In this document: one piece after another, positions 51,742 through 56,064 of the stretch
How the letters are laid out: each line of letters opens with the position of its first letter
Numbering within the stretch: the stretch's first letter is position 1
Origin: Pirellula sp.
Lineage (GTDB): Bacteria > Planctomycetota > Planctomycetia > Pirellulales > Lacipirellulaceae
NCBI GenBank assembly: GCA_013822725.1
Contig: PNKX01000001.1
Span: 62,001-126,000, forward strand
DNA length: 64,000 bases
Direction of reading: 5' to 3'
The notes under the pieces: generated by a model
Told to the model about the DNA's origin: nothing
Databases searched by the model: none
Seen by the model: the letters and a program-made list of their open reading frames with translations, nothing else
Position numbers and translations under genes: made by a program

Positions 51742-52953
51742 ATGGCCGGCAACTCGCGGAGCGGCGTTGCGATTGGGCGAATGAATCGCCGCCCTGCGTT
51801 GGATTCGCTCTGCATGGTTCCTGTCGACGAGACGCCGACGTTCGATGACGCGGCCCGCGCCGAGATCTTGCTCGCGCTAACGCCGGATGTGGGGCCCATT
51901 CTGCGCTCGCGCCTGCTGGAGCGATTCGACACAGCGGAGGCGATCTTTGCGGCGTCGGAGTCAGCTCTACAAGACGTTCAGGGGATCGGACCGAAGATCT
52001 CGCGGCGGATTATCGGCGCGCGGCACGAAGTGCAACTCGACGCCCAGCTGGCCATCGCGCGGGAGCATGGGCTGACGATTCTGCTGCCGCAGTGGCCGGG
52101 GTATCCGCGGTCGCTCAAGGAGATTCCCGATCCGCCCGGCGTGCTGTTCGTTCGCGGGGCGATCGAACCGGCCGACCAGATGGCGGTGGCGATCGTCGGC
52201 ACGCGGCGGGCGACGCACTACGGCAAGAAGCAGGCCGAACGACTCGCGGCGGGGCTGGCTCGCGCGGGACTCACCGTGGTGAGCGGCATGGCCCGCGGCA
52301 TCGACGGCGTCGCTCATCGCGCCGCGATGGCTGCCGGCGGCAGGACGATCGCGGTGCTGGCGAGCGGCGTGCTCAATCCGTTTCCGCCGGAACATGTGAA
52401 GCTAGCCGAGGAGATTGAACAACAAGGCGCCGTGCTGAGCGAAGCGGCCCCGACGATGCCGCCGCTCGCCGGGATGTTTCCGCAGCGCAACCGGATCATC
52501 AGCGGGCTGACGATGGGAACGATTGTCGTCGAGGCAGCCGACCGGAGCGGGGCCCTCATCACCGCACGGCATGCAATGGAGCAAGGCCGCGAGGTGTTCG
52601 CCGTGCCGGGGCCGGTCGACAGCCCCGGCTCGTCCGGACCGCATCGCTTGCTCCGCGACGGGGCGAAGCTAGTCACCTGCATTGATGATGTGCTCGAAGA
52701 GCTCGGCCCGCTAGTTGAAGCAGCGCCTGACCAGCGGGGCGGAACGATTCGCGTGGCCGCGGAAGTGTTGCTCAACGAGATCGAGCATGCGGTGCTGCAA
52801 GCGATCGAGCCGACGGGGTCGATGCTCGACGACGTCGCGGCGAGCTGCGCGATGCCGATTCATCGCGTCCTCGCTACGGTAAGCGTGCTGGAATCGCGAC
52901 GGCTGGTGCGGAAGTTGACGGGAAATCGCGTCGCCAGGATCGAGGCCCATTAA
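51742..52953 (+). CDS. dprA: DNA-processing protein DprA
   Basis: The 403-residue product has the N-terminal SAM-like region (LTPDVGPILRSRLLERFDTA), the Rossmann-fold core (VAIVGTRRATHYGKKQAERL, TVVSGMARGIDGVAHRAAM, GGRTIAVLASGVLNPFPPEH) and the C-terminal winged-helix-like part with VFAVPGPVDSPGSSGPHRLL. DprA loads RecA onto incoming single-stranded DNA during transformation and is also a general single-strand binding factor. A later start (Met at about 51784 or 51814) would remove an N-terminal extension of unclear reality. Confidence 0.93.
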   Translation: MAGNSRSGVAIGRMNRRPALDSLCMVPVDETPTFDDAARAEILLALTPDVGPILRSRLLERFDTAEAIFAASESALQDVQGIGPKISRRIIGARHEVQLDAQLAIAREHGLTILLPQWPGYPRSLKEIPDPPGVLFVRGAIEPADQMAVAIVGTRRATHYGKKQAERLAAGLARAGLTVVSGMARGIDGVAHRAAMAAGGRTIAVLASGVLNPFPPEHVKLAEEIEQQGAVLSEAAPTMPPLAGMFPQRNRIISGLTMGTIVVEAADRSGALITARHAMEQGREVFAVPGPVDSPGSSGPHRLLRDGAKLVTCIDDVLEELGPLVEAAPDQRGGTIRVAAEVLLNEIEHAVLQAIEPTGSMLDDVAASCAMPIHRVLATVSVLESRRLVRKLTGNRVARIEAH

Positions 52954-53676: not shown

Positions 53677-54120
53677 CTGGAACTGTCTTACATTTGATCA
53701 CTGGCGCCTCCTAAAATGAGACTTTCGACCTGCCGGTTTTGCACGGCTTTGCAGTTTTTGGCAGTCGTAAAATCCCCTCGGGAACCCGCGAACCACCCCT
53801 GGGAGTGTGACGTAAAGCCATACTGAGGGCCATCTTGCTCCCTCTTCCTAGGCGGACGCATGCGTCCGTTTCTCTACCTACGGCATGCCACTTGCATTAA
53901 TCCCCTCCGTGCTCGTCGGGGAGCCAGCAAGTTCCCCGACGCGTGCCGGCCGAACGAATCAATCGTGAGGTCTGGGCCGCTTAAAAACGGCCATTTCCGC
54001 GACCCATGGAAATGCACTTGTTAGAATGCTAGGGTCGGCGGAATTTAATTCAGGACGGCTGGGAGGAGGGATTTTCTCCCAGTAACACCGTCGAACTCTC
54101 AGATATGAGGAGTTCGTAGG

Positions 54121-54789
54121 ATGAAAAAGTTGAACAAGGAAGAACTGAACGGCGCCAATGCCACGTTGTCGGCCCAGGGTCTGATCGACTCGCCAGCCGT
54201 CAGCGACGAACAATTGTTGCAATCGTACCGCGAAGCTAGCAATCCGACCGTCTTTGCCGAGTTGGTCTCTCGCTATCAACGCGAATTGTATAATTACCTC
54301 CGTCGGTTCCTGGGTGACGCCACCCTGGCCGAAGATGTGTTCCAAGCGACGTTCTTCCAGGTCCACCAGAAGCGCGACTCGTTTGAGGAAGGCCGGAAGT
54401 TCCGTCCTTGGCTCTATACGATCGCTACGAACCAAGCGATCGACGCGCAGCGGCGAAATCGTCGTCATCGTCGATTAAGCTTGAATCAACCGCACCAAGC
54501 CGGCAGTGAGTCCGTAGGAACATTGATCGACTTGGTGGCGGCTGACGGGGGCGACCCCGTGATGGCCGTCGAGAGCAGCGAAGAGGGCGCCTGGGTGCGG
54601 GGCGAGGTCGAGGCCTTGCCGGAACCTCTCCGCAACGCAGTGAACTTGGTTTACTTCGGGGGAATGAAATACCGTGACGCAGCCAAGGTCATGTCGGTGC
54701 CGGTCGGAACGGTCAAAAGCCGTTTGCATGCCGCCATCCAACGCCTGGGCCAAGCGTGGCGCGACGTGCAGCCGGCGAGCCGTTCGTAA
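54121..54789 (+). CDS. ECF-family RNA polymerase sigma factor
   Basis: The 222-residue product has an AGGAG ribosome site and sigma region 2 (YQRELYNYLRRFLGDATLAE, DVFQATFFQVHQKRDSFEEG, FRPWLYTIATNQAIDAQRR) and region 4 (VNLVYFGGMKYRDAAKVMSV, PVGTVKSRLHAAIQRLGQAW). An N-terminal extension of about 25 residues precedes region 2. The next gene (54928) encodes an anti-sigma-like fusion on the same strand after a strong hairpin. Confidence 0.93.
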   Translation: MKKLNKEELNGANATLSAQGLIDSPAVSDEQLLQSYREASNPTVFAELVSRYQRELYNYLRRFLGDATLAEDVFQATFFQVHQKRDSFEEGRKFRPWLYTIATNQAIDAQRRNRRHRRLSLNQPHQAGSESVGTLIDLVAADGGDPVMAVESSEEGAWVRGEVEALPEPLRNAVNLVYFGGMKYRDAAKVMSVPVGTVKSRLHAAIQRLGQAWRDVQPASRS

Positions 54790-54848
54790 GGACGCATCAT
54801 GTGCGGCGAGCGGACGCGTTTCGGCTGCAGTTGAGTTAAGTCACCACC

Positions 54849-54886
54849 ACAGGCCTGTCGCAACGTGCGGCAGGCCTGTTTTATTT
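54849..54886 (+). terminator. Rho-independent terminator after the ECF gene
   Basis: ACAGGCCTGTCGCA pairs with TGCGGCAGGCCTGT over an ACG loop, with one G-T pair, followed by TTTATTTG. The stem is 14 bp. It separates the ECF gene from the downstream gene, so either the latter has its own promoter or termination is partial. Confidence 0.75.
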
Positions 54887-54927
54887 GAGTCGCACGCGAT
54901 TATCGCACGCGGACGGGAACTACCGCG

Positions 54928-56064
54928 ATGACTGACGATCTAGTCGCTTACCTGCTGGACGACTTGTCGCCCGAGCGCCGGGCTGAAGTCGACGCGAAGC
55001 TCGAAACCGACGTCGTCTGGCGTTGGGAACTCGATCGCCTGCGCGAGTGCATGGCGGCGAGCGGCGACATCGAGCAGTGCGTCGAAACCTCCGCCGCCGT
55101 TCCAGATGCGCTGGAGTCATCGCACGTCGATCTGGAGCCGCCAGTCGATCTGGTGAAAAAGACCTGCTGCTTCGTTGAGGACTCGGCGAGCGGGAAGTTT
55201 AAGGTCGAGAAGAAGCGGTGTAAGAAGAAGGCGGCGTTTTCCGCGGCGACGTGCGAAAGCGGCGGCAGGTCGTGGAGCTTGGCCGACGTCACCGTCGGCG
55301 CCGGCGTGCTGCTGATTCTGGCGGCGCTGATCATGCCGGCGGTGCAGCGATCACGCGACGCGGCGAGAAACAGCTACTGCATGAACAACATGCGCGCCAC
55401 CTACCTTAGCACTGAGAAATATGGGGATCGGTACGCCAACGCGATGCCCGTACTCGCTTCGAACGATCCAGCCGCGATGTTTTACATTGAGTTGGTCGAC
55501 GCTGGTTTCCTGGCGCCAGCCGACGCGATCCAAGTGATGACCTGTCCCAACTCTCCCCAAGCGCAACGTCGCTTCCAGCAGCAAGGCCCGATATCGATTC
55601 CAAACCGCGAGGAACTTGCGTCGCTTAGCGCTGCCGATATACTCGCCGCCATCAGCGCTCTAAACATTTCCTACGCGTTGCCGCTCGGCTATCGAGATGG
55701 CAACGGTGACTATCGCCAGACGAAGCTCAACAGCGATCTCGACGCGCCGCTAATCGCCGATGCTCCGGCAGTGACGGCGCGAGGCGTCCAGCCAGTCAAT
55801 CATGGCTGCCGGCAAAATGTCCTGACAAAGTCGGGAAGCGTCGACGTCCTGGCAGCCAGCGTTCTAGGCTGCAACGACAAATCACTGCAAGAGCTTCATC
55901 TGAATGATCGGGGCGATCTCTCAGCCGGCTGCAGCGAGACTGACGTCGTGCTCGCGCCTGCGACCTTCAGTTCCGACGGGCAGTTGAGCCTCAGCCCGCC
56001 CCGAACGATGCAGGGTTCCTACTGGATAATTCCGATCGGGCCAGCAGTGCTGGACAAGGACTAG
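54928..56064 (+). CDS. Anti-sigma-like/DUF1559-like fusion protein
   Basis: The 378-residue product starts MTDDLVAYLLDDLSPERRAE, an N-terminal region typical of anti-sigma factors (about 110 residues, here without a CXXC zinc pair). A membrane helix follows at residues 117-138 (VGAGVLLILAALIMPAVQRS), and its tail has the pilin-like RDAARNSYCMNNMRATYLST seen after the helix of DUF1559 proteins. Towards the C-terminus NHGCRQNVLTKSGSVDVL matches the DUF1559 strand with conserved H and G. A typical DUF1559 protein starts with the pilin helix, so the anti-sigma-like part is fused in front. It follows the ECF gene. Confidence 0.75.
   Translation: MTDDLVAYLLDDLSPERRAEVDAKLETDVVWRWELDRLRECMAASGDIEQCVETSAAVPDALESSHVDLEPPVDLVKKTCCFVEDSASGKFKVEKKRCKKKAAFSAATCESGGRSWSLADVTVGAGVLLILAALIMPAVQRSRDAARNSYCMNNMRATYLSTEKYGDRYANAMPVLASNDPAAMFYIELVDAGFLAPADAIQVMTCPNSPQAQRRFQQQGPISIPNREELASLSAADILAAISALNISYALPLGYRDGNGDYRQTKLNSDLDAPLIADAPAVTARGVQPVNHGCRQNVLTKSGSVDVLAASVLGCNDKSLQELHLNDRGDLSAGCSETDVVLAPATFSSDGQLSLSPPRTMQGSYWIIPIGPAVLDKD

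Follow-up and report, generated by a model that had tools for sequence, protein, structure and literature searches.

A conserved planctomycete gene pair encoding an ECF sigma factor and a probable membrane-bound anti-sigma factor with a pilin-derived part

In Mycobacterium tuberculosis, the genes for the anti-sigma factors RskA and RslA stand beside those for their ECF sigma factors, SigK and SigL, an arrangement that also holds for the two genes described here. The zinc motif is optional among class-I anti-sigma factors, and RskA likewise lacks it (PMC7406223). The rpoE transcript is a CsrA target in E. coli, a precedent for the action of CsrA on an ECF gene, and the core of CsrA/RsmA sites is ANGGA (PMC7652899). 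Furthermore, a survey of predicted sigma54 promoters reports that those of Planctomycetia show enrichment at CsrA genes, and less so at COG2165 (T2SS components) (PMC12316311).

We analyzed a stretch of 64,000 nucleotides from Pirellula sp. (the window), in which an ECF gene followed by a gene for a fused anti-sigma-like and DUF1559-like protein had been predicted from the letters alone. Both open reading frames were found at the predicted positions.

54121..54789, + strand: ECF sigma factor gene, 222 aa, with Pfam sigma regions 2 and 4
54928..56064, + strand: whole putative anti-sigma/pilin fusion gene, 378 aa

The product of the first gene matched Sigma70_r2 (PF04542, E=5e-20) and Sigma70_r4_2 (PF08281, E=2e-12) in Pfam and scored 97.8 bits against TIGR02937, for which the cut-off is 42.9. 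It has Sigma70 regions 2 and 4, lacks the extra domains of housekeeping sigma factors, and is 52-96% identical to the ECF sigma factors encoded 5' of the fusion in other genomes. By these sequence characters, its identity as an ECF sigma factor is beyond doubt. A DprA-like gene lies at 51742-52953, ~1.2 kb 5' of the ECF gene, and most of 15 related loci have a similar gene about as far away.

The window copy of the fusion by itself fell under every family cut-off (zf-HC2, E=0.19; DUF1559, E=0.34; NCBIfam anti-sigma model, E=1.6e-4 and 21.7 bits against a cut-off of 100). Because these scores were too weak in every library, a reading from this copy alone was rejected, and the fusion was read with the help of its relatives, which were found in 52 of 60 related genomes, one copy each at the search threshold. 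The N-terminal part was divided as follows.

54928..55062, + strand: predicted anti-sigma helices 1-3, residues 1-45, without a zinc motif (profiles, model and fold)
55150..55188, + strand: predicted anti-sigma helix 4, residues 75-87, with a conserved PPxxLxxRT just before and in the helix (alignment and model)

NCBIfam anti-sigma models matched 51/52 and 49/52 orthologues (best E-values, 3e-16 and 1e-11), with alignments that started inside the first six residues in the eight members looked at; the whole-protein cut-offs of NF052375 and PRK13920 were missed by the eight members scored (best scores, 59.6 bits for a cut-off of 100 and 44.7 for one of 225). When a profile of the N-terminal part was compared with the PDB, the top two chains were those of RskA (E=0.0044) and RslA (E=0.012). 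The predicted model showed helices at residues 2-9, 15-27, 29-45 (29-52 in the model of the N-terminal part only) and 75-87, which is the three-helix bundle plus helix 4 of class-I anti-sigma factors. A Foldseek comparison of the N-terminal model with 350,542 chains yielded 18 matches, 16 of which were class-I anti-sigma factors (RsiW at the top, and RslA, MucA, RseA, RskA and ChrR), each at an E-value of 0.7 or worse; the whole fusion model turned up both pilins and anti-sigma factors, all at 0.2 or worse. The PPxxLxxRT stretch is nearly invariant among orthologues. The zinc motif Hx3Cx2C occurred in just one of 138 members, a distant planctomycete fusion (L092) in which HLESCTEC exceeded the Pfam zf-HC2 cut-off, and which also has an ECF gene upstream and a pilin-type helix and C-terminal motif of the same kind as the window fusion. 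Thus, the predicted resemblance of the N-terminus to anti-sigma factors was recovered by profile (NCBIfam and PDB) and by fold, and its assignment as a zinc-less class-I anti-sigma domain is supported by these comparisons.

The related genomes also bore out the expectation that a neighboring ECF gene would be conserved. In the first 30 loci it immediately precedes the fusion and shares its strand, with one exception, and over all 52 loci it was just upstream in 50 according to a filtered table and in one more (G057) on inspection. The exception among the first 30 is locus L018 of Adhaeretor mobilis (G022), a genome in which the ECF gene and the fusion share a strand, the former ~8.6 kb 5' of the latter. 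At L043 of this genome, a long open reading frame resembling polysaccharide chain-length proteins and tyrosine kinases stands immediately 5' of the fusion. The same architecture was recovered from other families of the class by a search with the N-terminal profile, and among 80 loci of named genomes that were collected by an ECF profile, the fusion lies directly 3' of the ECF relative in 68, including Singulisphaera acidiphila and Phycisphaerae records. Two order-level genomes that were first scored negative (G042 and G059) carry a diverged form of the fusion. Genome G355 retains the ECF gene with a strongly diverged partner. The fusion is therefore encoded next to its ECF gene, which is a class-I character.

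In one family (f21), the full-length fusion was absent from 11/11 genomes tested, and the best ECF scores were no higher than 119 bits, versus 232-267 bits in four genomes of other families searched alongside. Since this family has neither the fusion nor the ECF gene, the two genes seem to be kept or lost together. In Aporhodopirellula aestuarii (L244), no fusion was found 3' of the ECF gene within the 2.5 kb read. MotA/MotB-like flagellar genes stand there in its place. At 13 Pirellulales loci (L046, L048, L051, L052, L053, L054, L055, L058, L059, L060, L066, L067 and L070), a helical-looking protein of ~300 aa (MHARQLVEIAGLL... in several), to which no function is assigned, is encoded 3' of the fusion on the same strand, starting 55 to about 1,700 nt past the fusion stop; none was seen in the window.

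The original prediction also held that a strong terminator separates the two genes.

54849..54886, + strand: intrinsic terminator between the ECF gene and the fusion, a 14-bp stem followed by TTTTATTT

This terminator is real, and a comparable hairpin and T-run lie between the genes in most members of the window's family. However, it is not general, as the two genes overlap or nearly touch in many other Pirellulales. Its presence suggests that members of the window's family may produce less of the inhibitor, or may transcribe its gene from a separate promoter.

We also analyzed column couplings between the two proteins (122 pairs). Fourteen of the 25 strongest fell within the anti-sigma domain, versus 3.6 expected, and the excess stayed after matching for column variability (15 versus 5.2). 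The best coupling joined position 180 of the ECF sigma factor, in region 4, with position 7 of the fusion, in helix 1, and in the published class-I interface helix 1 contacts region 4 (PMC7406223). When partners were swapped among near relatives, still 11.9 of the top 25 on average fell in the anti-sigma domain, and only the top score (0.389) beat all 20 swaps (maximum, 0.364). Because the signal largely survived these swaps, it partly reflects shared ancestry; we consider it suggestive and rejected it as independent proof of contact.

The N-terminal domain might instead be a helical adaptor that does not inhibit the ECF sigma factor, the pairing of the genes reflecting another common function. 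Such a reading would fit a window copy that has low scores and no zinc motif, but profile, fold, coupling and joint loss all indicate an anti-sigma factor, and a zinc-bearing homologue with the same architecture exists, so that we regard an adaptor as highly improbable. From these comparisons, the two genes probably encode an ECF sigma factor together with the membrane-bound anti-sigma factor that acts on it.

The remainder of the fusion consists of the following parts.

55273..55431, + strand: pilin-type helix inside the chain, residues 116-168, with W at +1, D at +5, P at +22 and C151
55432..56061, + strand: DUF1559/HX9DG-type ectodomain, with C206, D278, H292, N326 and D339

In the window copy, RDAARNSYCMNN occupies residues 143-154 of the helix, and the C-terminal part reads H292...N297-V-L...G303. 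A profile of the helix, which is 51 residues long in the predicted model, matched Geopilin, GspG and PilE1 in the PDB (E-values of 2e-4 to 1e-3). P at +22 was found in 52/52 orthologues, W or F at +1 in 46/52, and D at +5 in 47, with E in the other 5. Residues C151, C206, D278, N326 and D339 are invariant in 52/52 orthologues, and H292 is nearly so. The DUF1559 pattern predicted at the end of the fusion held when the orthologues were searched: the DUF1559 model matched 41/52 (best E-value, 5e-9), and three of nine members scanned were above the Pfam gathering cut-off for DUF1559 (PF07596, 23.3 bits), the window copy scoring 11.3. The predicted DUF1559-like module resembles short HX9DG prepilins more than it does the DUF1559 proteins in which this genome abounds; among ordinary prepilins, the closest that were found are short and come from other planctomycete families.

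At position -1 of the putative cleavage site, 18 of 138 fusions have G and 6 have A, most having R, S, P or others (S in the window); at +5, 125 have D and 8 have E. In contrast, the heads of 19 ordinary DUF1559 proteins that these searches had returned, picked by a pattern that leaves the -1 residue free, had G (17) or A (2) at -1 and always E at +5. The fusion family therefore does not keep the G/A at -1 and E at +5 that mark type IV prepilins, and cleavage by prepilin peptidase was rejected for most members. These alignments suggest that the helix is derived from a pilin yet, as a rule, is not a substrate of this peptidase, in agreement with the predicted role of the helix as an internal membrane segment.

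A different reading is that the fusion is a genuine prepilin with a very long leader, which the peptidase cuts before W116, so that pilin maturation frees or destroys the inhibitor. The pilin-like residues at the junction (aromatic at +1, acidic at +5 and P at +22), the 18 of 138 members with G at -1 and the prepilin peptidase genes of this genome could be cited for it, but most members, the window copy among them, have R, S, P or others where ordinary pilins of the sampled genomes keep G or A, and we judge it very unlikely. Because the cleavage site is not conserved, the most fitting reading of the fusion is an anti-sigma factor that stays in the membrane permanently and has a pilin-derived sensor.

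Upstream of the ECF gene, the original prediction had missed a sigma54-type promoter, an ECF-type promoter of the form GAAC-N16/17-CGTA, and a covarying leader RNA with ANGGA motifs. These promoter and RNA signals suggest three further controls on the ECF sigma factor. The promoter elements in the window are as follows.

53882..53895, + strand: sigma54-type promoter of the ECF gene (GGCATGCCACTTGC; -24 GG, -12 GC), a conserved strict motif
54093..54096, + strand: -35 element GAAC of the ECF-type promoter
54115..54118, + strand: -10 element CGTA of the same ECF-type promoter

The strict motif GGCAYR-N4-TTGC, which contains the -24 and -12 elements, was found 5' of the ECF gene in 27/31 genomes of the window's family and in 12/16 other Pirellulales, versus 0.04 and 0.02 expected from shuffles (39/47 versus 0.06 for the pooled Pirellulales). 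It lies 165-317 nt 5' of the start codon in the window's family; from the window sequence alone, the match was not significant. The genome has rpoN, and by motif conservation the sigma54-type promoter of the ECF gene is order-wide. A short stretch resembling GCGTAA or ACGTAA stands 5' of the sigma54 site (53882) in many family members and is a possible activator site.

The GAAC-N16/17-CGTA motif lies near the start codon of the ECF gene and was found 5' of it in 14/16 other Pirellulales, 16/16 other members of the class and 46/56 named loci (0.04-0.23 expected), although here, as for the sigma54-type motif, the counts are not independent, owing to the common ancestry of the groups and to a few genomes that were entered twice. 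In the window's family, 13/31 have the exact spacing and the spacer differs in the rest, being 18 in the window. The presence of this promoter at the ECF gene across the class implies that the ECF sigma factor would regulate its own expression from it.

Neither type of promoter was found in 22 sampled regions upstream of ordinary DUF1559 genes. A link to these genes through common promoters was therefore rejected, and a pilin regulon is unsupported here. This result bears on a narrower form of our best explanation, which differs in the signal. In that form, the fusion is an ordinary membrane anti-sigma factor, the pilin part being an anchor and a recruited sensor of envelope stress, with RseA/RsiW-like proteolysis and no link to pili or secretion. 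RseA and other studied membrane-bound class-I anti-sigma factors act in this way (PMC7652899), and the lack of a promoter link to DUF1559 genes agrees with it, but the conservation of C151, C206, D278, H292, N326 and D339 suggests more than an anchor. We consider the chances of this narrower form to be evenly balanced.

The features of the leader are as follows.

53996..54123, + strand: structured leader RNA of the ECF gene, model R1, with stems P1, P1b, P2, P3 and P4 (covariation)
54107..54112, + strand: ribosome-binding site GAGGAG, paired in hairpin P4
54006..54010, + strand: ANGGA motif 1 (ATGGA), internal loop beside P1; in 31/31 sequences, the second base varying
54067..54071, + strand: ANGGA motif 2 (AGGGA), loop of hairpin P3; in 27/31 sequences, in two nearby alignment columns
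54136..54140, + strand: ANGGA motif 3 (AAGGA), early coding region; in 29/31 sequences

The leader, taken as the last 128 nt in the window's family, showed 65 double-changed cells versus 29.1±4.7 in shuffles (0/500), and a covariation score of 0.245 versus 0.158. The model had one match in the genome (E=1.7e-22) and recovered relatives that had been left out of its training (E-values of 1e-9 to 1e-24); outside the window's family, no match was found in the 73 sources searched. The Rfam copy searched gave no match, and a sub-threshold match to RAGATH-28 in a relative (L052) lies elsewhere, so identification of the leader as a known RNA was rejected. Folding energy (z of -4.3 in the window, against an average of only -1.2) was also rejected as proof of structure, which therefore rests on covariation. 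The reading of hairpin P4 is ambiguous, since both the ECF-type promoter and the ribosome-binding site overlap with it. Over 29 leaders, the mean unpaired probability of AGGAG was 0.22, with values below 0.3 in 25.

ANGGA occurred 105 times in the leaders of the window's family, versus 42.6 expected, with a variable second base and the rest nearly invariant; groups beyond this family showed no excess. At motif 3, Lys is always encoded by AAG and Thr always by ACG, and the codon before nearly always ends in C while its amino acids vary, a constancy that argues for selection on the RNA. Thus, in the window's family, several ANGGA sites, some of them in hairpin loops, lie near the ribosome-binding site, as in CsrA targets. 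The genome has six CsrA genes (contigs C3, C9, C11 and C13), all over the Pfam cut-off. Given the paired ribosome-binding site, the three ANGGA sites and the six CsrA genes, we propose control of the ECF leader by CsrA as a good hypothesis. A riboswitch, thermosensor or attenuator would equally have covarying stems and a paired ribosome-binding site, but it would leave three near-invariant ANGGA sites, their excess over expectation and the CsrA genes aside, and for the leader we think it the less probable function, though one to be taken seriously.

The binding, in vivo topology, signal, CsrA action and regulon that we infer would fit together as follows. The zinc-less class-I domain would stay in the cytoplasm and hold the ECF sigma factor, with helix 1 on region 4 and helix 4 on region 2, like the contacts of known pairs. 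The former prepilin helix, no longer a peptidase substrate, would anchor this domain, with the pilin-type domain outside. A change sensed by the outer domain or in the membrane would weaken the grip or lead to proteolysis, freeing the ECF sigma factor. Expression of the ECF gene would be started by sigma54 and amplified by the ECF sigma factor itself from the promoter at the start codon of this gene. Its translation would be restrained, in the window's family, by the structured leader, the CsrA-type sites and the paired ribosome-binding site.

As to the signal, a specific guess is that the outer domain responds to the pool, or to the state of assembly, of the cell's numerous pilin-like proteins, given that pilin position 5 has remained acidic although the cleavage site is lost. 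A model is offered by the PilS-PilR system of pilA in Pseudomonas, which is sigma54-dependent and in which the membrane protein directly contacts pilin (PMC6058289). By this analogy and from the retained acidic residue, the pilin-derived part might sense pilins or secretion; the lack of promoters common with DUF1559 genes counts against it, and we offer it tentatively. In its widest form, which we likewise put forward as speculation, the locus would be an ancient planctomycete circuit, in which a domesticated, uncleavable pilin senses through pilin-pilin contacts, and in which sigma54, autoregulation and CsrA-type control of the new leader RNA would set the ECF sigma factor as three further layers.

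The DUF1559 proteins that abound in planctomycetes have no established function, and a single-copy relative fused to an anti-sigma domain connects this fold with signalling and makes it accessible to genetics. The ECF sigma factor, kept in one copy across most of a class rich in such factors, would be a core rather than a niche regulator. No description of the fusion, the promoters or the leader was found in the papers searched. All of the parts are of known kinds, and our view that the combination is new is provisional and limited to those papers.

Among the known systems, RskA/SigK and RslA/SigL share with the window pair an N-terminal helical anti-sigma domain, and were the best two profile matches in the PDB. 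Unlike them, the window fusion has a pilin-type helix and ectodomain in place of the usual outer part, and it shares very little sequence identity with them. RsiW/SigW and RseA/RpoE also place a membrane-bound anti-sigma factor over an ECF sigma factor, RsiW being the top fold match and RseA among the matches, but they have no pilin-derived part and, to our knowledge, a sigma54 promoter and leader architecture like the one found here is no part of either system. The gene for HrpL of Pseudomonas syringae, an ECF sigma factor, is under sigma54 transcription; we know of no membrane anti-sigma factor with a pilin part in that system, and its function is unrelated. PilS differs from the fusion in being a histidine kinase with six transmembrane segments, is not an anti-sigma factor and has no homology to it. 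Finally, the DUF1559 (PF07596)/HX9DG prepilin-type proteins of Planctomycetes share with the fusion the helix and the C151-xx-N-L, C206-P and H-x9-DG motifs. In the fusion, however, the helix is internal and follows an anti-sigma domain, the cleavage site is not conserved, D replaces E at +5, and there is one copy per genome, whereas DUF1559/HX9DG proteins number in the dozens.
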